Origin: Bacillota bacterium
GTDB taxonomy: Bacteria; Bacillota; Limnochordia; DTU087
Direction of reading: 5' to 3'
NCBI GenBank assembly: GCA_012798695.1
Contig: JAAZMR010000052.1
Coordinates: 1 to 64,000 of the forward strand
DNA length: 64,000 nt
A program made the translations under genes and the position numbers. Shown one piece after another: positions 14,831 through 26,454 of the stretch; position 1 is the first letter of the stretch, and every line of letters begins with the position of its first letter. The notes beneath the pieces were generated by a model, which was not told the DNA's origin, did not search any database, and saw nothing but the letters and a program-made list of their open reading frames with translations.

Positions 14831-15694
14831 CTAGAAGGTTCCTCCCAAAAAGACAGGGCCAAACAGCACTACAAGCAAACTTGGGAATATGAATAACACC
14901 AAGGGAAACAGCAGCTTAACTGGAGCCTGATTGGCCTGCGCCTCGGCTCGATGAGCCTGGCTGATGCGAATCTGATTAGCCAAAAGCATCAGGGTCGAGG
15001 TAATGCTTGTCCCTAACTGATCTGCTTGAATCAAGGTCGCACAAACAGATCTGATATCCTGCTGCTGGTTTCTGGCAGCCATGCGCCTGAGGGCCTCTTG
15101 GCGGCTGTCCCCCATTCTCATATGGTGCAGCACTTGCTGGAACTCGTCGATCAGCGGATTGGGTTGAGTCTTTTCCACCATAATAGCTACTGCCGCGTCA
15201 AAGGTAAGCCCTGCTCCCGTACAGATGACCAAAAGATCCAATACTCCCGGTAATGCCCTCCGAATCGCTGCTTCCCGCTTACTAGCGGCACTAGCCAGCC
15301 ACAAGTAAGGTAGCCTGCTGCAAAGGCAACCACCCAAGCATGCGAGAAAGAACCCACCTTGGGAGACGTATATGTAAGTGGCTCCAACTATGGATAGAAC
15401 CAAACGCCAGCCCCATAATTCTTGTATACTCATGTTTCTTGGATAACCGGCCACACGTAAGCGCCGCCGGCTATCTTGCCCAGTCCCTGATGAATAGACC
15501 CTAACCCACAAAACTTCCCCCCAGGTCTCGAGCAATCCTCGCACTACCAATACGAGCAGATCCCATTGATTGCCCTCAAAGGCAGTGTCTGACCCAAAGC
15601 GTTGCCTAATCAACCAGCCGGATTCCATTTCACCGTACCATAGACACACCAAGGCCAAACAACTGCCATAAAAGGTCGCCAACAGCCAAACCAT
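14831..15694 (-). CDS. tadC: Tad pilus inner-membrane platform protein TadC
   Basis: The 287-residue protein is a type II secretion F (T2SSF) family platform subunit. The C-terminal domain (about 135-270) begins with RRALPGVLDLLVICTGAGLTFDAAV, the TadC pattern. Hydrophobic segments are near residues 3-20, 95-130 and 262-285. With TadB it anchors the secretion ATPase and moves pilin across the membrane. It is the last gene of the Tad operon, 12 bases after tadB. No clear terminator was found before the TPP riboswitch region. Confidence 0.9.
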   Translation of the reverse strand: MVWLLATFYGSCLALVCLWYGEMESGWLIRQRFGSDTAFEGNQWDLLVLVVRGLLETWGEVLWVRVYSSGTGQDSRRRLRVAGYPRNMSIQELWGWRLVLSIVGATYIYVSQGGFFLACLGGCLCSRLPYLWLASAASKREAAIRRALPGVLDLLVICTGAGLTFDAAVAIMVEKTQPNPLIDEFQQVLHHMRMGDSRQEALRRMAARNQQQDIRSVCATLIQADQLGTSITSTLMLLANQIRISQAHRAEAQANQAPVKLLFPLVLFIFPSLLVVLFGPVFLGGTF

Positions 15695-15706: not shown

Positions 15707-16531
15707 TCAACTATCTATGCGGCAGATCCGACTGATCATCCACGCGCCTAAAATCTCCAGAGAAAACGCCACCCCTAGAAGTACCTGGCCTAAAGGATGG
15801 ACAAAAAGCGGTTCGATAAACCCGGGCATGACCAGGTACATCACCCCCGCCAGAGCTATTGGTAGGATTGAAACAATGATACCGGTGAGTCGTCCTTGTG
15901 AAGTGACACTTCTTAGTTTCGTCTTTAGGTTCATTTCTTGTCGTAATGACTCCCTGAGGGTACCAAGAATAAAGCCCAGATCACCACCCATCTGGCGTTG
16001 GATAACTACTGCTGTGACTAATTCCGAAAAAGTCTCGTTTGCTGTCTCTGCCCCGGCTCTCTCCCAAGCGACATCCATAGGTATACCTAAATGAACTTCT
16101 CCAACAATTCGATTAGCAATAGCAGCCAACGGGGGCTCCATTTCTCTAGCTACCAGCTCCAGTACCTGAAACAAGTTGAATCCCGCCCGCAAACCTCCTT
16201 GCATTAAGCTTAGGCCATCTAGCAGCTGCAGCTCTAGCTTAGCTTGTTGACTCCTTCGACGTTGTGAAGCGATGAGCACGGGAGCGAAACAGAACAAGAT
16301 TGCACCGATAAGGCTCCCCCAATGCTTCCCCACAAGCCACCCCAGCACGGCTCCTATAAACACCCGATAGCGTGGATTCGTCACAAAGCGTCTTCCCAGA
16401 CTTCTTAACCCCCGGCCGTGGTTCCATCGGGCCTGTATGGCGCCCGGGTTGCGGAGACTCAAACCTAGGCACAGCAAGCTCAGAAAGTAAACTAGATTCA
16501 TGCCAAACCACGGGGTATGAAAAGGTAACAT
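15707..16531 (-). CDS. tadB: Tad pilus inner-membrane platform protein TadB
   Basis: This T2SSF-domain membrane protein has 274 residues from ATG 16531, which has an AGGGGG site; an ATG two codons earlier overlaps that site. The cytoplasmic T2SSF domain (about 100-225) has LLDGLSLMQGGLRAGFNLFQ and the QRQMGGDLGFILGTL stretch conserved in TadB. Membrane segments are near the N-terminus, around residues 60-85, and in the C-terminal 60 residues. It pairs with TadC as the platform on which the CpaF ATPase domain works. It follows the CpaE-CpaF fusion gene by 83 bases. Confidence 0.91.
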   Translation of the reverse strand: MLPFHTPWFGMNLVYFLSLLCLGLSLRNPGAIQARWNHGRGLRSLGRRFVTNPRYRVFIGAVLGWLVGKHWGSLIGAILFCFAPVLIASQRRRSQQAKLELQLLDGLSLMQGGLRAGFNLFQVLELVAREMEPPLAAIANRIVGEVHLGIPMDVAWERAGAETANETFSELVTAVVIQRQMGGDLGFILGTLRESLRQEMNLKTKLRSVTSQGRLTGIIVSILPIALAGVMYLVMPGFIEPLFVHPLGQVLLGVAFSLEILGAWMISRICRIDS

Positions 16532-16614
16532 ACACATCCCCCTATTGAGTTAATCTTAACCTAGACATCGCACTTGATTTGATGTCAGCCAAGACTGTTT
16601 ACTAAAGCTAGACA

Positions 16615-18717
16615 TCAGCTAGCCTCTTGCTCTTGCATCTGCTCATGTAACATAGCAGGGCTATTGACTCTATCGAACTCGCCCTGAACCCTGCCATCCG
16701 CATCAGTGCCTGTTTGGCGAAATGCAAACAATGGAACCAATCTTACGTTGCCATCTTGCATCCCTTCAATCCAGGAGATCTCGGTTATCTTGCGACTACC
16801 ATCCCGAAATCGTTCCTGGTGAACCACTATGTCCAGAGCTGCAGTGATTTGTTCCCGAATGGCCACCAGGGGCAAGTCCACACTCCCCATCATCACCATG
16901 GTCTCCAATCTTGACATGAGATCCCGGGAGGAGTTGGCGTGCCCGGTGGTCATAGAACCATCGTGCCCGGTATTCATGGCCTGTAACATATCGAGAGCCT
17001 CTGGTCCTCGCACTTCCCCGATGATTATTCTGTCTGGACGCATCCTCAGTGCATTGCGCAACAGCTCCCTAATGCCGACTGCACCCTTCCCTTCGATATT
17101 GGCCGGCCGGGCCTCTAATCGTCCTACATGAGGCTGCTGTAGCCGCAGTTCCGCGGCGTCTTCGATGGTTATCACACGTTCATCAGTTGGTATGAAGCTG
17201 GAAAGCACGTTCAGCAGAGTGGTCTTGCCTGATCCCGTACCGCCTGAAACTACAAGGTTCATTCTATGACGGACACAGTCCTGGAGGAATTCAGCCATCT
17301 CCTTACTGAGGGAACCAAATCGAATCAAATCATCAATACCTAGAGACTCGTCAAAGAATTTACGGATAGTCAACATCGGACCATTCAGAGATAGGGGAGG
17401 AATGATCGCATTGACACGAGAACCATCGGCTAGTCGAGCATCGACCATAGGCGAGCTTTCATCGATCCGACGACCCAAAGGAGCAATGATCCGCTCGATG
17501 ATTTTGATCACTGCATTATCATTAGTGAACCGTTTGTCAGTTAATACCAACTGCCCTCGACGCTCCACATAAACTTGGTCACAACCATTAACCATGATTT
17601 CTGTGATTTTTGGGTCTCTGAGGAGGCCTTCCAAATGACCAAGCCCGAGAATCTCATCTACCATCTCTTCTCGAAACGTATGGTGCTCCTTCTGACTCCA
17701 CCGATTTCCGACCTGCTCCAACAACAGATCATCAATGACTTTGATCACTTGAGCTGTCAGTTGCGCTGTTGCTCTGCCCTCATCCTCACCATAATCCAGG
17801 CGGGTAGGGCCTACCTGCTCAATCACTCGTTGATGTACCAAACTCTGTAGAGTTTGTCGACATGGTTGGGTATCATCCTGTCCGGTTTCGGCATCTGCCC
17901 CCTCATTCTTAGTCTTATTCAGGTTGGAGATCAGAGGAAGTAAACGCCTTCCGATGAGTTGGGATGCCTCGGGCCCCTTCCCTGTAAGCTCTGTGAACAT
18001 TGTTTTCAATCCCTTGACGATCGTGGCCGGGTTCTTGCCGCCTTCCATCCACCTCTTCCGACCAGAGACTTCCGGAATGACATGGTCGAAAGGCTGGCCA
18101 GTTATGGTTTCCATCTCCGGTACTGTCAGAAATTCCTTGCTTGTTAGCCGGTTTAGTACCAAACGGGTGCGGCCTCCATAACCTAATAAGCGGAGGAGCT
18201 TGATCAGGTCACGTACGTTCTGTAATGCAATACCATCAGGTGTCACCAGCGTATAGATTCTGCTGCTGATTGGCAAAACCGCCAGTACACGATTGTCGAA
18301 ACTACTGGCCAAATCTACTATCACGAAATCATATTGGTAACGCAAAAGGTGGATCGCCTTTTCGACATGCCCCTCCCCGATCCGCTGCCAGCGATCAGGG
18401 CTTATCGGTGCTGCCAAGAGACGCATACCACTTTTGTGAGGCAGAAGATACTGCTCCATAGTTGTGGGAACTAACGTATCAATAGCTGGTAGCAGATCGG
18501 CGAAATTTGGGTCAGGCTCTAGTTCCAGCGATAGCGCCAAATCGCTTCCGAGGCGGAGAGTAAGATCCACCAATACCACCCTATATCCCGCTTCCGCTAG
18601 TAATGCGGCCAGCCCCGCGCAAACTGAAGTCTTGCCAACTCCACCTTGACCACCGTAAATCGAGACCACTTGTCCCAAGCTTCTTTCAGCCGGAACTCTT
18701 GCCGAAACTGCCGACAT
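16615..18717 (-). CDS. CpaE(TadZ)-CpaF(TadA) fusion: MinD-like ATPase joined to Tad secretion ATPase
   Basis: One 700-residue frame carries two Tad proteins that are normally separate. Residues 1-260 are a MinD/ParA-like domain (CpaE/TadZ, pilus localisation) with the P-loop [10 protein letters not shown] at 22-31, IVDLASS at 133-139 and LVLNR at 186-190. The signature lysine of deviant Walker A motifs is replaced by Gln24. A variable linker (about 260-290) follows. Residues 290-665 are a CpaF/TadA secretion ATPase with Walker [10 protein letters not shown] (492-500), GEVRG Walker B (567-571) and the His box [13 protein letters not shown] (583-595). ATG 18717 has a GGAGGTGTG site. There is no frameshift or internal stop, so the fusion is a real coding unit. 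The MinD-like part would place or regulate the motor in cis. Confidence 0.92.
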
Positions 18718-18752: not shown

Positions 18753-21692
18753 TCATGGTTCTACGGACACATCACTCCACAAGCAATCTGAGACTTGCAC
18801 TAACCGTGGACTAACCAACACGATCAAGTCCGTTTTCTGGTTTGTCTTTGCTTCACTGCGAAATAGCGCACCTAGGATTGGCAACTCACCTAAGACTGGC
18901 ACTTGTCTTTGCACAGTATTTTCCTTTTCTGATAGCAGACCACCGATCACGAGCGCTTTCCCTGGCTCAACCGCTGCCTGTGTACGCCAACGCCTAGTGC
19001 GCACCCCTGGTACGTAAGAATCCTCTAGTTGAACAGCATTCTCCCAATCAAGAGAGCTGACTTCCGGTTCTACCTGCAAATGAATACTACCATTGCCCAA
19101 GATGGTTGGAGTAACGGTCAGTCCCACCCCGTAGGACTTCCATTCTATTCCCTGAGATTCGGCCGGAACCGGTATTTCACCCCCGGCAAGAAACTCAGCT
19201 TGTTTGCCGTTTTCAGTGAGTAGAGAGGGTGATGCCAGAATACGAGCCTCGCCAGTATGCAAAAGGCTTCTCAGGTGGGCTTCGGCCCATAAAGGCCCAA
19301 CTATGAGACTAGATGCCGACCTTGCATCTAGCGTTACGGCATTTTCAGATAGTCTACTCGGCAATTCTACCGACTCGCCCGACTGCCGCTCATCAGCTCC
19401 TAAACCCACCTCCCATTCGATCCCTATCTCTCGACCCCGGCTCTGTGAGAGTTCCAGCATACATACATCTACCCAAACCTGTCTGACCTCATCTGTTACA
19501 GTGAGAAAACTCTGTACCGGTATACCAAAAACCTCGGCCAACGTCTCTATGCGTTGCTGCTCCCCAATTGATGTAACCGACCCCTGCAAGACTAAAGTGT
19601 CTTCTAGATAATGGCACTGGATATCGGGATTTGCCAATGCAGACTTAACTAAGGATATTGGCGGTGGTGGGGCAGGGGGTGGTGGGATTAGGGAAAGGTT
19701 GTTAATCCAAAAAGAGAACTCGCTGTCTAACAGTGATTCTAGATAGTCGCCATTACGTGAAGTCACTACTCCCTCTAACACCGGTATGGAGCCCACTTTA
19801 TATAACCGTGCTCCCTGTGCAGATGCCTCTTGGGCTAAGGATTCCCAGTTTCCATCCACAGGCTCGGGGGTGACCGTAACCTGGATGAGATCGATCACCT
19901 TCTCTCCGAAGGCTCCGGCAATGATTTCGGCTCTGACTTTACTATCAGGATTCTCTACCTCACCTTCGAGCAAGATGGTTCCATTTACAATGCGAACCTT
20001 GACCAATTCCAATCCTATAGCTTCTTCCACATCAGCAGCTGTAAAAACCGGCATCTCCTCATGCTCATGCACCACCATCATGCCATCGATTACTGGGTAT
20101 CCAAAGACTGAAGCAGCAGCGAGCATCGCCTCTCTTTGCTCAACTGAAGCAACTTCTCCTCGTAAAACTACAGTATCCCCTATGGCAGTTACTGCCACAG
20201 TATCGCTGGCCAGCAGGGCCTCAATCTCGGCTAAGGTCAAAGCTGAAAGACTTTTTCCTGAGATCAGATCGATTACTTGGGAGCTATATTGAGTCGCAAG
20301 CGCTACCGCGGCAGTGTGTGCTTCTTGAGATAGAGAGCCGGCCAGTACAAGCTGGTCTCCCACCCACCGTACCACTAATCCGGGTATGCCTATCTCTGCC
20401 TGAATTAGAGAAGCTGGAGGTTTAGTCACCTCTACTTCCGGAATGCAAAGTAGATTGGAGACCTTTAGCCCTAACGGGGTCCCATAATCTTCTACTAACT
20501 CCTGGGCTAGTTCTATGGTCGATCGATCTCTTCCATGGCCCTCAATGATCAACCGGCTTCCCTTCTGAACGAGGGTTACATCTTTGAGGCCAGGCAGCTC
20601 CTGCAGCATCGCTTGGAGATGGGGTAAATCGGCTGTGCTTGGCTGCGGTGCTCTCACAGTTGTGTTATCTATATAGGCAAAATCATGAGCTGCCAAGAGT
20701 TCTATTACCGCGGCTTTCTGGGTTGTATCATATGCCTCTCCCTCTAACATGAGAATCTCACCAATTGGGTTTAATGTATACCCCCATGTCGCGCATAGAG
20801 CCCGGATATCTTCCAGGACCTCGACCGAACCTTCGGCGTTTTCGGTATCGTCAATGGCGTCTAATCCTACGTCAGAGGCATCTATTGCGGCATCCGTTGT
20901 CACTGGTAGTTGCGAGATTCGAACCAAATTCAGCACCTCCGGTACGAACTGCCGCGCAATCTCCCCCGCTCGCAGGCGCTGTCCAGGATCCGCCACCTCT
21001 CCTTCCAGAATCGCGAGGTTCTTGACTACTTGAACTTGAATCTCAGGCATACCTAGGGCTGCTTGAAGCTCTTGGGCTGAAAAGTACTCTATTGGCTCAT
21101 CTGTGACCTCGATAAACTGCTCAGCATCATCCTCTACGATAACTAAACTAATCACCGGGTCCCAAACAGATTGAACTATGTTTTCAACAGTAGATTTTTC
21201 CACCTCCGAGGACACTGTGCCGCGAAGAACTAGATACTCTTGCCACCAACTTGGTCTCACACCCCATGCTTCCACTAATTTCGCTACGTACTCTAGGTCT
21301 AGCGGAGGCCGAGCTGTAACAACCAGATTAACAGTCTCTAGGCCATCGGCGTCCCAAATCATCAAGGTTGTGTGACCTGGCCCTACCCCATTAATCAGGA
21401 ACGCATCTTCTTCGAAAATCTTGACATCAGCCACCTCTTGATCACCAACCGCCACTCGCTGCAGACCATGGGCTGACTGAATGATGCTCTCACCGGCATA
21501 AAGATAAATACCGGGACTGTTGCTAGACCTTCGTTCGGCGGCAGCTGAGGACAATGACTCCATCGGAACCAAATTACTAGCACCAGCCTGCATCACAGTC
21601 AAGAACAAGGCCATTAGCTGCATTAACCCCAGGACCCAAATGCGCTGCATTCTCCGTTCCTTATCTTTGATCAACTTTCTTGTCCACTGCAC
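18753..21692 (-). CDS. Secretin-like Tad protein with tandem BON-like modules (CpaC/RcpA-type)
   Basis: The start is GTG 21692 with a strong GGAGGTGA site seven bases upstream; a longer frame lacks one. The 979-residue protein has a basic N-terminus and signal segment (about 16-38), a CpaC-type N-terminal domain (about 64-127, with VGDQEVADVKIF), and about nine repeated 55-residue BON-like modules (roughly 131-187, 206-261, 291-346, 356-417, 426-479, 487-542, 551-607, 616-669, 679-733). A proline-rich stretch lies at 670-678. A C-terminal type II/III secretin domain (about 737-969) has ARILASPSLLTENG, GVGLTVTPTI, VIGGLLS and VPVLGELPILGALF. Secretins normally form outer-membrane pores, so its place in this apparently monoderm lineage is unclear. 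It may form a cell-wall conduit. Confidence 0.88.
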   Translation of the reverse strand: MQWTRKLIKDKERRMQRIWVLGLMQLMALFLTVMQAGASNLVPMESLSSAAAERRSSNSPGIYLYAGESIIQSAHGLQRVAVGDQEVADVKIFEEDAFLINGVGPGHTTLMIWDADGLETVNLVVTARPPLDLEYVAKLVEAWGVRPSWWQEYLVLRGTVSSEVEKSTVENIVQSVWDPVISLVIVEDDAEQFIEVTDEPIEYFSAQELQAALGMPEIQVQVVKNLAILEGEVADPGQRLRAGEIARQFVPEVLNLVRISQLPVTTDAAIDASDVGLDAIDDTENAEGSVEVLEDIRALCATWGYTLNPIGEILMLEGEAYDTTQKAAVIELLAAHDFAYIDNTTVRAPQPSTADLPHLQAMLQELPGLKDVTLVQKGSRLIIEGHGRDRSTIELAQELVEDYGTPLGLKVSNLLCIPEVEVTKPPASLIQAEIGIPGLVVRWVGDQLVLAGSLSQEAHTAAVALATQYSSQVIDLISGKSLSALTLAEIEALLASDTVAVTAIGDTVVLRGEVASVEQREAMLAAASVFGYPVIDGMMVVHEHEEMPVFTAADVEEAIGLELVKVRIVNGTILLEGEVENPDSKVRAEIIAGAFGEKVIDLIQVTVTPEPVDGNWESLAQEASAQGARLYKVGSIPVLEGVVTSRNGDYLESLLDSEFSFWINNLSLIPPPPAPPPPISLVKSALANPDIQCHYLEDTLVLQGSVTSIGEQQRIETLAEVFGIPVQSFLTVTDEVRQVWVDVCMLELSQSRGREIGIEWEVGLGADERQSGESVELPSRLSENAVTLDARSASSLIVGPLWAEAHLRSLLHTGEARILASPSLLTENGKQAEFLAGGEIPVPAESQGIEWKSYGVGLTVTPTILGNGSIHLQVEPEVSSLDWENAVQLEDSYVPGVRTRRWRTQAAVEPGKALVIGGLLSEKENTVQRQVPVLGELPILGALFRSEAKTNQKTDLIVLVSPRLVQVSDCLWSDVSVEP

Positions 21693-21717: not shown

Positions 21718-22602
21718 CTACCGTTCAGCCATAATCGATTGCAGAGAGGATGTCTTGGTAACTGATGCACTTTCTAGCGAGGCAGCAGTACCTCTGATCA
21801 CTTCGATAGTCTTGAGTGGTATGTTCGCCACACCTGGTGAAGATCTATCAGGTGTCTCTCTTTCCAATGTAGCGGCAAATGCATTCAAATCACCTCGTTC
21901 ATGACCGAGAATATCCCTCGTGGTCATGGCGCCCTGATCTTGAATGCAAGATTCCTGTGCGCCTTCAGGCCGCAGGAGCAACTGTAAAGAGCCACTAGAA
22001 CCAAATAGTGCCAGCCTCTTGGCCTGTTCAGGTGAGACTGCCAGGACCACATTTTGCTTTGCCCAATCTGTGCCATACCCATATGGATCATGATTTTCAA
22101 TAATGTCCAGCAGCATTATGTTCTCAAGCACCATGAGACTATGTTCCAGCCCCGAGCCATAATCCAGCAGGGTACCAAGAATATCTACCCGACTGCCCGC
22201 AGTCAGTTCTGCCTCCAACCCCCCAATATTACTGACTGAGACTACTATAGCTCGTTCCCTGGGCGCCAATTGCCAAACCAGACTCTGTTCCCCTTCAGCT
22301 ACAAGCCGGTCAGCTAAGATGACCTCTCCCGGTACAAAATCTACTGAAGCGAATTGGCCTTCTATTTCGCTTTGCCGGGCGATAGCCCCTTGAGGTACCA
22401 TAGCGACTGGCCACATCTTGGTTTCGACTAGATTTGCCTGCATCTCTGTCCCTTTCGATATGGCAGTCTTGGCCACAACCACCTGAGCTCGTGGCCCTTG
22501 GCCAGTGGCCTGCTGCTCCAGCTTGCGGATATGACTAGCGGTGAGTCTAGTACCCACGAGGGCCAAGATTATGGCAACTAATAGATATCGATAACGAAAC
22601 AT
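21718..22602 (-). CDS. cpaB: Flp pilus assembly protein CpaB/RcpC
   Basis: The 294-residue protein has one N-terminal membrane segment (about 5-20) and a SAF domain (about 38-110, from AQVVVAKTAISKGTEMQ to VPGEVILADRLV). An RcpC/CpaB domain follows (about 110-230, with GSRVDILGTL and VVLAVSPEQAKRLALF). CpaB is thought to act with the CpaC secretin in the envelope. The gene precedes the secretin gene by 25 bases and follows the unknown secreted protein. The last 60 residues are low-complexity and Ser/Thr-rich with no known role. Confidence 0.9.
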   Translation of the reverse strand: MFRYRYLLVAIILALVGTRLTASHIRKLEQQATGQGPRAQVVVAKTAISKGTEMQANLVETKMWPVAMVPQGAIARQSEIEGQFASVDFVPGEVILADRLVAEGEQSLVWQLAPRERAIVVSVSNIGGLEAELTAGSRVDILGTLLDYGSGLEHSLMVLENIMLLDIIENHDPYGYGTDWAKQNVVLAVSPEQAKRLALFGSSGSLQLLLRPEGAQESCIQDQGAMTTRDILGHERGDLNAFAATLERETPDRSSPGVANIPLKTIEVIRGTAASLESASVTKTSSLQSIMAER

Positions 22603-22632: not shown

Positions 22633-23430
22633 CTAGAAAACATGCTCGGAGCCAATGGTATAGGAGACAATACCCGCCTTAGCTAAAGGTGGTTCGATAT
22701 AGAGAAATAGCCCAGCCGCTTCGCTTCCACCAAATGTTCCCCAGACACCTAACGAATAGGTTGCCCATCCAGGCAACCGAGCATAATGATCCACCACGGT
22801 GTCCATCGGTTGCGCAGTCCTGAATCGGTAGAATCCCCTTGTTATCGGCTGATTGATGGGAATATACGCCTGTACTAGCTGTGATCCAGGCACCGGGTGG
22901 CAATGAGTAGGCAATACTCCGTCCAGATTCGCCCTTAAGTTGGGCTCATGGTTGAGAATTGCTAGGTAGTCGTAGGTATCACCACGGTCGCTGTCCGCTT
23001 CCCCAACAAACGCTACCAACTGCCAAGATCCAAGGGTTGCCTTAGTTTTGAAACCGGAGAAACTGAGGTCATCTAATGATATGATCCCGAAAATATCCAA
23101 CCTGAGTAGCTCATCCCAAAAATCCATGTCGTTGAGAGTATCGGTCTGTATAGTGATGCTCCTCCAACCTGCTCTTCTTAGGTCATCATGAAGTAAGTGT
23201 CTAGTGCGCGACGACAACTCTCCGGTTTCTACATAGACCCATTTCTGGTCATTGGCACACCAACCCGCAGTCACAATTTCCCCTGTTTTTTTCCATATAA
23301 CCGGGACTTCTAATGTCGGAATTGGTAGTGATGCATCCACTATGCTAGGCAGGGCCACTATCAAACAGATAACACAGAGAACTAGCTTCAGATGGACAGA
23401 TCTGGTCCAAACCCCATTCATCGCTCTCAT
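22633..23430 (-). CDS. Secreted protein of unknown function in the Tad operon
   Basis: I do not recognise this 265-residue protein. It has a signal peptide (about 12-34, ending near VDAS), two cysteines in the mature part and many aromatic residues, but no motif I can name. It begins inside the ATGA overlap with the upstream TadE-like gene, and cpaB follows by 30 bases. Translational coupling and position suggest a pilus or envelope part made with the machine. It could be a lineage-specific stand-in for RcpB or TadG-type accessory proteins, but this is inference only. Confidence 0.7.
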   Translation of the reverse strand: MRAMNGVWTRSVHLKLVLCVICLIVALPSIVDASLPIPTLEVPVIWKKTGEIVTAGWCANDQKWVYVETGELSSRTRHLLHDDLRRAGWRSITIQTDTLNDMDFWDELLRLDIFGIISLDDLSFSGFKTKATLGSWQLVAFVGEADSDRGDTYDYLAILNHEPNLRANLDGVLPTHCHPVPGSQLVQAYIPINQPITRGFYRFRTAQPMDTVVDHYARLPGWATYSLGVWGTFGGSEAAGLFLYIEPPLAKAGIVSYTIGSEHVF

Positions 23431-23903
23431 TGACGTCGTTTGCCCCCTCGTAAATACTCTCTAAAGCTCTTTAGACCATCCAGATCTGGGATGCGTCTTA
23501 TATCGAATAATTCTCTATTTAGACTCATGGAGGCTGTAATCACAGGCGGTTCACCAAAGAAATCCATTAGTGGCAGCATCAATGGTGTGCATTTGAGCAG
23601 TATGGTTGCCATGAAAGTGCTCTCGATCACGAAACTTTGGACTGACTCGGTGTCCATGAATGGATACTGTCCAAAATATTCGATCATCTCTTCTTGGATA
23701 GCTCGCCGTCCTCCACCATCCAGATAGACTTGAGCCGCATGCCTTACAGCCATATGTGTCACGAGGTTGGCCTCACAGATTAGGGCCAACTGAAAGACAC
23801 CCCATAGCAGTATCAACAGAATAGGTGAAATGAGCACGAATTCTATCAATGCCTGTCCGGAATCCAATTCCACGCAGTTACAGGTGTTGTATACTAATCG
23901 CAA
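23427..23903 (-). CDS. TadE-like minor pilin (second copy)
   Basis: This is a 158-residue protein from TTG 23903, which has a GGAGGGG site six bases upstream. A TadE-type prepilin segment (GQALIEFVLISPILLILLWG) is at about residues 15-34, the hydrophobic helix expected to be cut by the prepilin peptidase before QALIEF. The rest is a small extracellular domain. It resembles the other TadE-like gene (24656-25075) only in the N-terminal helix. TadE proteins act as pseudopilins in Flp pilus assembly. It ends overlapping the unknown secreted protein by 4 bases. Confidence 0.82.
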   Translation of the reverse strand: MRLVYNTCNCVELDSGQALIEFVLISPILLILLWGVFQLALICEANLVTHMAVRHAAQVYLDGGGRRAIQEEMIEYFGQYPFMDTESVQSFVIESTFMATILLKCTPLMLPLMDFFGEPPVITASMSLNRELFDIRRIPDLDGLKSFREYLRGGKRRQ

Positions 23904-23994
23904 GATGAGCCCCTCCCGCTCACGTGTGGTAAACACGTCTAGAAGGTTCGTCAGTGTGAAGCAGCGACAATAATATATTTCGGCTTCATATGCC

Positions 23995-24654
23995 CTAGCG
24001 CAACTTACCCAAGCCCCCGCCGAACTTGGGAAGGGCTAACCCCTTGCCGTGCACGACGGCTTCTGCCGATGCTGTAGGGCAAAATGCTAGGTCCGGTGCA
24101 GTCCGATCCCTCACTAAGGCCCTAACCCATTCCGGTAGCTCAATTTTGGTGGCGGCTACCACCCGTACAAAACGATTACCTATGCGCCCTTTCAGCCGAT
24201 CTTTATAGTACCCAACCCTACCAAAAAGCCGGATACGGCGTTCAGTGACCCCTAGGTCGGGATTGTGAATCGGCAAAACGAGAGCTTCATTGGCTAACCC
24301 AACCTGTATCGCCCTGCCATTGACTATGGCGGCAGCATCCTTGATTACCTCCCTCGCCAGCATTTCTGCCGTCCTTCGTGCTTCCCTTCCCCAATGGGGA
24401 ATTAGATGCGAACTGATACGAATCCAGTTGACATAAACAATCAAGTCCAAACTATCGGCCATCATGCCCGCCCCAGCCATGGCAGCCGCATCAGCCGCAT
24501 TTTGAGCTTTGATTTTGCCAACAGCGATCTGTGAGGTAAGGTATATACCAACAGCAAAAGCTAAGATAGCTCCAAGAGTGAGCAGTAAGAAAACCATGGC
24601 GTGCCCGCGCTCATCCATAAGAACCACTTTTCTCCCAGTAGTCACTCGCACCAC
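23995..24654 (-). CDS. TadG-like Flp pilus-assembly protein
   Basis: The 219-residue protein has an N-terminal segment DERGHAMVFLLLTLGAILAFAVGIYL (about 14-40), then NAADAAAMAGAG, the pattern of the putative Flp pilus-assembly TadG N-terminal domain. The C-terminal von Willebrand-like part found in longer TadG proteins is absent, so it is a short version. GTG 24654 has a GGAGGGGG site at seven bases and overlaps the stop of the preceding TadE gene. A longer start within that gene is possible but less supported. Confidence 0.78.
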   Translation of the reverse strand: MVRVTTGRKVVLMDERGHAMVFLLLTLGAILAFAVGIYLTSQIAVGKIKAQNAADAAAMAGAGMMADSLDLIVYVNWIRISSHLIPHWGREARRTAEMLAREVIKDAAAIVNGRAIQVGLANEALVLPIHNPDLGVTERRIRLFGRVGYYKDRLKGRIGNRFVRVVAATKIELPEWVRALVRDRTAPDLAFCPTASAEAVVHGKGLALPKFGGGLGKLR

Positions 24655-24655
24655 A

Positions 24656-25075
24656 TCACCGCCCCCTCCCAATGGCATAGGCTACGAATAGCTGATTGAA
24701 AGTTTGATCGAGTGCCGGTCGCCCTGCTACCCATGCCAAGAATCTAGCAAACCGAGTTTCTTCCCGACCAATCTCCACATCTACCCGTTTTCCTCGCTTT
24801 TCCACCTTGAGCTGTCTGCCGCTAAGTTTGCGAATTGGCTCGGAAAACCAGAAAAGTTCACGACGTGAGATGGCCAGGAAATTGGCGGCGGCATTCTCTC
24901 CAGCCTCCGAACCATCAGTCAAGGCCGTGCGAGCCGCCACATAGGCCGCAAAATGCAGCATGTGTGACTCTATCACATATAGAGCAAAAGCCAAGATGCC
25001 CCAGACAAATAGAAGTAACAGAGGCAGTACTAGGCAAAACTCTAGGAGAGCTACTCCCTGTTCACTTGTATTCAC
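24656..25075 (-). CDS. TadE-like minor pilin (first copy)
   Basis: The 139-residue protein begins with the segment GVALLEFCLVLPLLLLFVWG (about 7-26), a TadE-type prepilin-like helix with the conserved Glu five residues after the likely cut. A basic, mostly helical extracellular part follows. The start is GTG 25075 with a GGAGAT site. It lies 27 bases after the prepilin peptidase gene and is coupled to the TadG-like gene. It probably serves as a minor pilin or pseudopilin for the Flp fibre. Confidence 0.84.
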   Translation of the reverse strand: MNTSEQGVALLEFCLVLPLLLLFVWGILAFALYVIESHMLHFAAYVAARTALTDGSEAGENAAANFLAISRRELFWFSEPIRKLSGRQLKVEKRGKRVDVEIGREETRFARFLAWVAGRPALDQTFNQLFVAYAIGRGR

Positions 25076-25102: not shown

Positions 25103-25570
25103 CTATGGAACTGGTAAGTCCCTAATGATTGTGATCATCTGTACCAAGAGCACCCCTAGCGAATAAGCTGCAGCATAAGGTACCATAATGATCTGTTCCT
25201 TCTGTTCACTTGTCCTAGCTCTACTGAGCACTAGACTGGTCAGACTAACGATCCCTCCACCGAAAGTACCGCATAGAAAGTAAGTCATAGCCAACTCTTC
25301 ACCGGCGACTATGCTTGTCGCTATGACTAACTTGACATCGCCTCCGCCCATCCAGCCTCTTTCGAAACCGTAATATAAGGGATAGGAGACTACCAATGAC
25401 AGCAGGATTGTCTTAATCAATACCTCGAGCCCCTCTACTCCGGCTAACACCAATCCTACAATCAGTGCCAACCCGATCAGGAAGTTAGGTACGATGCGGT
25501 ACCGTAAATCGCAAAAGACAGCCCCAGTTGATAGGATAGTCAACACCAACTGCCTAGTCAGATTCAGCAT
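25103..25570 (-). CDS. cpaA: A24-type prepilin peptidase (CpaA/TadV)
   Basis: This is an aspartic protease in the membrane that trims Flp and TadE prepilins. The 155-residue protein has four to five membrane segments. The two catalytic aspartates are visible: Asp21 in VFCDLRYRIVPN and the Asp in GWMGGGDVKL (about residue 77). It lacks the N-methyltransferase domain, as usual for CpaA/TadV. It lies between the pilin genes (207 bases upstream) and the TadE genes, inside the Tad operon. Confidence 0.93.
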   Translation of the reverse strand: MLNLTRQLVLTILSTGAVFCDLRYRIVPNFLIGLALIVGLVLAGVEGLEVLIKTILLSLVVSYPLYYGFERGWMGGGDVKLVIATSIVAGEELAMTYFLCGTFGGGIVSLTSLVLSRARTSEQKEQIIMVPYAAAYSLGVLLVQMITIIRDLPVP

Positions 25571-25776: not shown

Positions 25777-25962
25777 TTAATTTGCTGTAGCTTTGACGCT
25801 ACTCAAGGATGCACTCATTTCCTCAAATTTCTGTTTGAGGTTCTCTCCCAGAGTTCTTACTGCAACCAATGCTGCAATGGCAATCAATGCGGTCAACAAT
25901 CCATATTCAGCCATACCCTGACCACCTTGGTCTGACCATAGCTGGGAGAGTCTTCGACCCAT
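25777..25962 (-). CDS. flp: Flp-type major pilin
   Basis: The 61-residue prepilin starts at ATG 25962 with a GGAGGAT site. The leader ends in GG, and the hydrophobic helix QGMAEYGLLTALIAIAALVAV (split here as QGMAEYG then LLTALIAIAAL) follows. The cut would fall before QGMAEY, with the Flp-typical Glu5-Tyr6 pair. It is the likely main subunit of the fibre. It lies 34 bases after a second pilin-like gene, both behind the operon promoter. Confidence 0.93.
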   Translation of the reverse strand: MGRRLSQLWSDQGGQGMAEYGLLTALIAIAALVAVRTLGENLKQKFEEMSASLSSVKATAN

Positions 25963-25996: not shown

Positions 25997-26179
25997 TTAG
26001 GCACCTATGGGCCACAGTGACACGGTATTGACGACATGCCGGAGGAAGGCCACCATCTCACTTCGCATATGTTTAGCCACCAAGATCAGTGGGAGAGCCA
26101 CAGCACTAAGTACCAATACGTACTCTAGCATGGCTTGGCCCTTTTCCCCCAGCCAGTAGGTTTGATTGAATACCGACAA
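25997..26179 (-). CDS. Second Flp-like pilin or pseudopilin
   Basis: The 60-residue protein starts at TTG 26179, five bases after a GGGGGTGG site; an in-frame GTG overlaps that site. It has the prepilin pattern EKGQAMLEYVLVLSAVALPL, with a Gly before the cut and Glu-Tyr at the positions seen in Flp pilins. Unlike the next gene, its tail has an HMRSEM...RHVVNTVSLW segment. It is the first gene of the Tad operon. It could be a tip or priming pilin, or a co-subunit. Confidence 0.8.
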   Translation of the reverse strand: MSVFNQTYWLGEKGQAMLEYVLVLSAVALPLILVAKHMRSEMVAFLRHVVNTVSLWPIGA

Positions 26180-26217
26180 GTTTTCCACCCCCTTATATGA
26201 TTTAACCTACCTTTTTC

Positions 26218-26265: not shown

Positions 26266-26293
26266 ATTTTAACATATGCCCTGTAAATGTCAA
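26266..26293 (-). promoter_or_regulatory. Promoter of the Tad operon
   Basis: On the minus strand TTGACA (26293-26288) and TAAAAT (26271-26266) are 16 bases apart, in an AT-rich stretch. It lies about 90 bases before the first pilin-like gene and after the rpe terminator, so the Tad genes have their own transcription start. Confidence 0.75.
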
Positions 26294-26343: not shown

Positions 26344-26378
26344 CAAAAAAATAGCTACCACTGTGCATGATAGCTATC
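26344..26378 (-). terminator. Terminator after rpe
   Basis: On the minus strand ATAGCTATC and GGTAGCTAT pair around ATGCACAGT with one mismatch, followed by seven T. It ends the rlmN-to-rpe operon before the Tad promoter. Confidence 0.8.
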
Positions 26379-26454
26379 TACACGAGTTCAAAATTCAATT
26401 GAAACACAAGACGAGGCGGATGTGAACTACTCGAGATCACCCATCAGTTAACTT

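Follow-up and report, generated by a model that had tools for sequence, protein, structure and literature searches.

A Tad secretin with nine BON modules in a diderm member of the Bacillota

Within the window, a stretch of 64,000 nucleotides from a member of the Limnochordia (Bacillota), a Tad operon encodes a 979-residue secretin of the CpaC/RcpA type in which nine modules of predicted BON fold lie between the N-terminal domain and the secretin core. Known Tad secretins have no such module or a single N3/BON domain, and the protein, which breaks this norm, is therefore a variant of the Tad secretin. Among diderm Bacillota the number of BON copies is graded (1 to 9, and 12), and the host of the window is itself diderm. 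By analogy with ring-building domains of other secretion machines we propose, with a probability of roughly 60%, that the nine modules form stacked rings that would lengthen the periplasmic collar of the secretin.

Layout of the secretin and fold of its modules

The open reading frame starts at a GTG codon with a strong Shine-Dalgarno sequence (GGAGGTGA) 7 nt upstream, and the following parts were assigned to it.

18753..21692, minus strand: Tad secretin CpaC/RcpA with nine BON modules, 979 aa (Pfam, orthologues, AlphaFold2 model)
21315..21512, minus strand: N-domain, residues 61-126, T2SS-T3SS_pil_N with a match to the RcpA N-domain (Pfam, model, sequence search)
21135..21296, minus strand: BON module B1, residues 133-186 (profile comparison, copy counting, model)
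20916..21089, minus strand: BON module B2, residues 202-259, the strongest Pfam BON stretch (Pfam, profile comparison, model)
20655..20846, minus strand: BON module B3, residues 283-346 (profile comparison, model), absent in the relative L024
20445..20630, minus strand: BON module B4, residues 355-416 (intermediate by profile comparison, clear in the model)
20262..20414, minus strand: BON module B5, residues 427-477 (profile comparison, full model and B5-B7 model)
20073..20243, minus strand: BON module B6, residues 484-540 (profile comparison, full model and B5-B7 model)
19878..20039, minus strand: BON module B7, residues 552-605 (profile comparison, full model and B5-B7 model)
19686..19853, minus strand: BON module B8, residues 614-669 (weak by sequence, clear in the model)
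19659..19685, minus strand: Pro-rich hinge PPPPAPPPP, residues 670-678, between modules 8 and 9 (sequence)
19497..19658, minus strand: BON module B9, residues 679-732, in the N3 position directly before the secretin core (profile comparison, model)
18789..19481, minus strand: secretin core, residues 738-968 (Pfam, structure match, sequence search)

Pfam placed T2SS-T3SS_pil_N at residues 64-124 (E 4.5e-12), BON with an E-value of 3.2e-16 (three stretches significant individually) and Secretin (PF00263) at residues 813-965 (E 9.1e-43), with the conserved C-terminal core present. The solved chain nearest in sequence to the secretin core was RcpA (E 2.8e-31), and a search with the N-domain sequence found the RcpA N-domain (E 9.4e-6). 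The AlphaFold2 model of the full-length protein, built from 12 sequences, has a mean pLDDT of 67.5 and a pTM of 0.29, and module packing in it is unreliable; its predicted order is a seven-strand N-domain, exactly nine alpha-beta-beta-alpha-beta modules and the secretin domain, and in a comparison with the PDB secretins ranked first, with RcpA (8odn) within the top three. Modules 3 to 8 are nearly contiguous in the model, with scarcely any linker between them, and the linkers at residues 189-204 and 261-288, the latter acidic and preceding B3, are disordered. A first-pass annotation had described a 979-residue secretin with a CpaC N-terminal domain, about nine BON-like units and an intact secretin domain, a description borne out by these searches, by the profile comparison below and by the model; the Pro-rich hinge, which it had placed between the array and the secretin, is found one module earlier.

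For a profile-profile comparison, units B1-B9 were excised from an alignment of 11 orthologues. B1, B2, B3, B5, B6, B7 and B9 were mutually linked, with high probability for most pairs; the links of B4 were intermediate and those of B8 weak, and windows of the secretin domain, used as controls, gave 0-11% against the BON units. A separate AlphaFold2 model of B5-B7 (pLDDT 84.5, pTM 0.41) is confident for the domains and not reliable for their arrangement, and its best matches in the PDB were the T3SS ring proteins YscD, CdsD and PrgH together with the BON proteins OsmY, DolP and BonA. Failure of the repeat units to match the BON fold had been named beforehand as refuting; Pfam BON and the nine predicted modules agree that they match it. 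The other refuting condition concerned the C-terminal domain, where an intact secretin domain was recognised. Each of the nine units is thus predicted to have the BON fold, B4 and B8 on the basis of the model and weak profile links.

The T3SS inner-ring proteins YscD, CdsD and PrgH share tandem BON-like alpha-beta-beta-alpha-beta domains with the window secretin, but they have three such domains, belong to the inner membrane and have no secretin fused to them. OsmY, DolP and BonA are periplasmic tandem BON proteins whose fold is like that of the window modules, but they have two modules and lie outside any secretin or pilus machine. In Thermus thermophilus, with its deep periplasm, the type IVa pilus secretin PilQ is lengthened by several periplasmic ring domains; its N-domains are of other kinds, and it is not known to have a BON array or a Tad N-domain.

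Every one of the 11 genomes in the GTDB family has an orthologue of the secretin, which makes contamination an unlikely source of the gene, and the open frames of the orthologues (930-1041 codons) are all similar in length, for which reason an assembly, frameshift or fusion artefact was rejected. The orthologues are 45-59% identical and the array is held at about nine modules across the 11 genomes, one member (G012) having lost a module. In unit-against-unit alignment, pairs of modules from the window secretin show about 20-35% identity where the alignments are longer; recent tandem duplication inside the protein is therefore not supported, and the modules are old. A search for viral relatives of the secretin found none.

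The Tad operon and other secretins of the genome

The secretin gene sits in a complete tad locus beside genes for CpaB/RcpC, TadZ, TadA, TadB, TadC and Flp. The order on the minus strand is two pilin-like genes, TadV, TadE-like, TadG-like, TadE-like, a 265-aa protein, CpaB, the secretin, TadZ-TadA, TadB and TadC, and it is the same in the three family members examined (L044, L045 and L046).

26349-26379: terminator-like hairpin, before the promoter-like site (consensus match only)
26266..26293, minus strand: promoter-like site TTGACA-16-TAAAAT, 11/12, upstream of the operon (consensus match only)
25997..26188, minus strand: second pilin-like gene, 63 aa (sequence, conserved order)
25777..25962, minus strand: Flp-type pilin, 61 aa, with the motif GMAEYGLL (sequence, conserved order)
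25103..25570, minus strand: TadV prepilin peptidase (family search)
24656..25075, minus strand: second TadE-like protein (family search)
23995..24678, minus strand: TadG-like protein, Pfam Tad (family search)
23427..23936, minus strand: TadE-like protein (family search)
22633..23430, minus strand: 265-aa exported-looking protein without a family match, conserved in the operon (family search, conserved order)
21718..22602, minus strand: CpaB/RcpC (SAF and RcpC), 294 aa, of ordinary size, the part of the conduit on the inner-membrane side (family search)
16615..18717, minus strand: TadZ-TadA fusion, 700 aa (family search, conserved order)
15707..16537, minus strand: TadB-like platform protein (operon place, conserved order, orthologues)
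14831..15694, minus strand: TadC-like platform protein (operon place, conserved order, orthologues)

The N-domain, the secretin core and the partners Flp, TadV, CpaB, TadZ, TadA, TadB and TadC are shared with the systems of RcpA (P. aeruginosa, PDB 8odn) and CpaC (C. crescentus). The window secretin differs from both in its nine BON modules and in being about twice as long, and the operon differs in the fusion of TadZ to TadA and in lacking a recognised TadD-, CpaD- or CpaI-like gene. The fusion also occurs in L044, L045 and L046; in the second Tad operon of the genome and at other Bacillota loci the two are separate genes. The 265-aa protein is encoded directly before cpaB in all family operons examined, and it is a candidate new part of the envelope machinery of the Tad system.

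RcpA of P. aeruginosa has one N-domain and no N3, and other Tad secretin homologues, including Caulobacter CpaC, have the N-domain and one N3 (PMC10499894, PMC13170226); a 2012 study assigned a single BON to CpaC (PMC3459982). B9 of the window secretin occupies the place of this single N3 domain. We found no report of a multi-BON secretin in the open-access literature, which gave at most a single BON in CpaC or RhcC2. RcpC of P. aeruginosa, the orthologue of CpaB, is an inner-membrane-anchored dodecamer that binds the RcpA N-domain, and the periplasmic part of the RcpC-RcpA complex, as modelled, measures 21 nm, against about 24 nm for the periplasm (PMC12307814).

The genome has a second, distinct Tad operon (L009:4231-17507, G000:C121) with its own multi-BON secretin of 1004 aa, in which eight modules were recognised and the linkers are longer than in the window secretin; this operon also encodes a TadZ with a receiver domain and a 1127-aa protein in which beta-helix and FlgD-Ig domains occur. 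Three short secretins of 392-413 aa lie outside any Tad operon (L008:671-1912, L010:7372-8574 and L011:2-1177). The two that were scanned have Secretin_N and Secretin, and the neighbours are exported proteins without a known family.

The host envelope and BON copy number among relatives

The host genome (2.68 Mb in 130 contigs, with a listed completeness of 100% and contamination of 5%) encodes BamA with POTRA domains, LpxC, LptA and LptC, and contig C99 carries LpxD, LptF/G, TamB and OmpH/Skp. A 794-aa open reading frame adjoining LptC/LptA has the place and size of an LptD and no Pfam match. An OmpM/SlpA-type tether of 1057 aa (L184:1437-4610, G000:C54) consists of an SLH domain at residues 61-104, a coil at about 116-489 and a barrel-like end that terminates in F; a second tether resembles Omp-alpha and is without a barrel. 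Because BamA, LpxC, LpxD, LptA, LptC, LptF/G, TamB, OmpH and an SLH tether are all encoded in the genome, the host is an LPS-diderm member of the Bacillota, and published Limnochordia are diderm (PMC11456536). The coil of the C54 tether is unusually long, with about 370 residues between SLH and barrel. A SpoIVB-type peptidase (Peptidase_S55, 721 aa; L007:15162-17327, G000:C99) is encoded beside TamB and BamA in the outer-membrane gene cluster.

The host had been taken for an apparent monoderm in the first-pass annotation, which held one of the diderm Bacillota in reserve and proposed a genome search for bamA, lptD, lpxC and OmpM. Of these bamA, lpxC and, as the OmpM/SlpA-type tether, OmpM were found, and the 794-aa open reading frame is a candidate for LptD. 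An array that spans the thick Gram-positive wall of a monoderm would agree with the Bacillota-like look of the neighbouring genes in the window. Against it stand the outer-membrane genes of the host and the presence of BamA in all family members tested and, among 398 genomes sampled across the phylum (secretin hit threshold E <= 1e-20), in 86 of the 87 secretin-positive genomes versus 16 of the 311 others; we give a monoderm host practically no credence, and the reserve reading has replaced it. The lone secretin genome without BamA (G425) is fragmented, and its family otherwise has BamA. The monoderm host might be rescued if contig C99 were contamination, against which co-occurrence across the family argues.

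BON modules were counted with an iterated profile seeded on the family of the window, which detects seven of the nine modules of the window secretin; the loci named are the best 80 of at least 595 candidates, ranked by likeness to the query. The Bacillota Tad secretins counted have 1, 2, 3, 4, 5, 6, 7, 8 and 12 modules. Those counted from Proteobacteria, Desulfovibrio-type bacteria, Phycisphaerae and Acidobacteria have 0 or 1, although single modules outside the seed family may be undercounted; the first-pass annotation had credited known CpaC/RcpA proteins with one or two. This graded copy number, set against 0-1 in the non-Bacillota Tad secretins counted, is what is new here. CpaB is mostly 269-322 aa in the Bacillota loci whatever the module number, and a shrinking of CpaB in exchange for BON modules was rejected.

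The twelve-module secretins, of 1115 and 1144 aa, are those of G056 and G057, and all twelve modules are strong (Pfam BON on the G056 protein, E 6e-69). In unit-against-unit alignment modules 5, 7 and 9 of the G056 secretin are 65-69% identical and modules 4, 6 and 8 are 55-64% identical; from these alternating sets it follows that a pair of modules was duplicated. In a tree of secretin cores the multi-BON proteins fall in several places, members with 2, 5 and 6 modules stand close together in one supported clade, and the window type and C121 type are apart; its deep branches are weak.

Such spread within a single clade, the copied pairs of G056 and the module lost in G012 are what would be expected if modules multiplied by slippage or recombination, with a copy number that has no function and only the secretin core and N-domain mattering. 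The array of the window family sits poorly with such drift: about nine modules have been kept in 11 genomes despite the divergence of the orthologues, and under drift some loss of modules as old as these would be expected. We consider functionless copy number improbable.

Proposed stacked rings or flexible arms, and envelope depth

Known Tad secretins form an outer-membrane pore of 12 to 14 subunits, as the window secretin would. In the mechanism that we favour, the C-terminal secretin domain would be the gate in the outer membrane, and the N-domain would dock, as in RcpA, to a CpaB/RcpC ring rising from the inner membrane. Each BON module would form a ring with its counterparts in the neighbouring subunits; stacked on one another, the rings would each make the periplasmic collar one storey taller. 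The conduit would be lengthened on the secretin side only, with CpaB staying at its usual size, and the number of storeys would evolve through gain, loss and pairwise duplication of modules. One ring would be some 2.5-3 nm high, an estimate from other secretin N-rings; nine modules, if they form rings of about this spacing, would add some 22-27 nm. The first-pass annotation had pictured a collar reaching through a thick wall. The thick Gram-positive wall falls away with a diderm host, and the stacked periplasmic collar stays as the best mechanism because both BON proteins and ring-building domains of T3SS are among the PDB matches of the modules.

The two disordered linkers and the Pro hinge count against one rigid tube. 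They would suit modules that hang as flexible arms from the base of the secretin and bind peptidoglycan, lipid or partners, anchoring the gate, as would the longer linkers of the C121 secretin and the place of DolP and OsmY among the close structural matches. In Caulobacter such anchoring is the job proposed for CpaD and CpaI; the operon showed no recognisable TadD-, CpaD- or CpaI-like gene, so another anchor may be needed. The modules match three-domain T3SS ring proteins too, however, modules 3 to 8 are almost free of linkers, and B9 replaces N3, which in Caulobacter is a globular domain below the secretin tunnel. On this balance flexible arms seem to us unlikely, though they deserve to be kept in view.

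If the modules do form a stacked collar, length may be the property of the array that is selected, and BON copy number may match the gate to the envelope's depth. An evolvable ruler, in which each module is one ring and pair duplication tunes the array to the gap that separates CpaB from the outer membrane, is a tentative extension that we consider possible rather than probable. Two proxies for envelope depth were compared with module number. The coil of the SLH tether, with length estimated from the change in composition and averaged by family, rises with module number in 10 of 12 families (Spearman 0.89, p 6e-4, for few families, with kinship uncorrected and f3 and f6 set aside after the data were seen); with f3 and f6 included the coefficient is 0.50 (p 0.10, 12 families). 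Family mean coils are about 28-39 residues at one module (f44 and f54), 214 at four, 305 at seven and 363 at nine. Families f3 and f6 break the trend, having very long tethers and few BON modules. The SLH proteins L243 (G003), L261 (G002) and L260 (G018) end in barrel-like segments, and their coils, estimated at 663-1232 residues, by far exceed those of other families; despite these long coils the Tad secretins counted in G003 and G018 have only 3 and 1 BON modules.

TamB length does not rise with BON copy number. Its open frames span 613-936 codons in the window family (f1), 1035-1167 in f8, about 1450 in f54 and f44 and more than 2300 in f64, and the one-module families f54 and f44 thus exceed the window family. 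Between f1 and f64 the length of TamB differs more than 3-fold among diderm Bacillota. The two rulers conflict, the SLH tether speaking for and TamB against, and a match of the array to a deeper periplasm is not established.

Should the stacked collar be correct, the window family would build one of the tallest secretin collars known, with nine BON storeys, and a related family would build twelve. The series of 1 to 12 modules with CpaB constant makes the length-ruler hypothesis testable and offers a natural comparative system for the fitting of trans-envelope machines to envelope depth, which has otherwise been approached mainly through engineering. With it the deep-branching diderm Bacillota, central to the debate on the diderm-to-monoderm transition, enter pilus biology with Tad machines built unlike the model ones.
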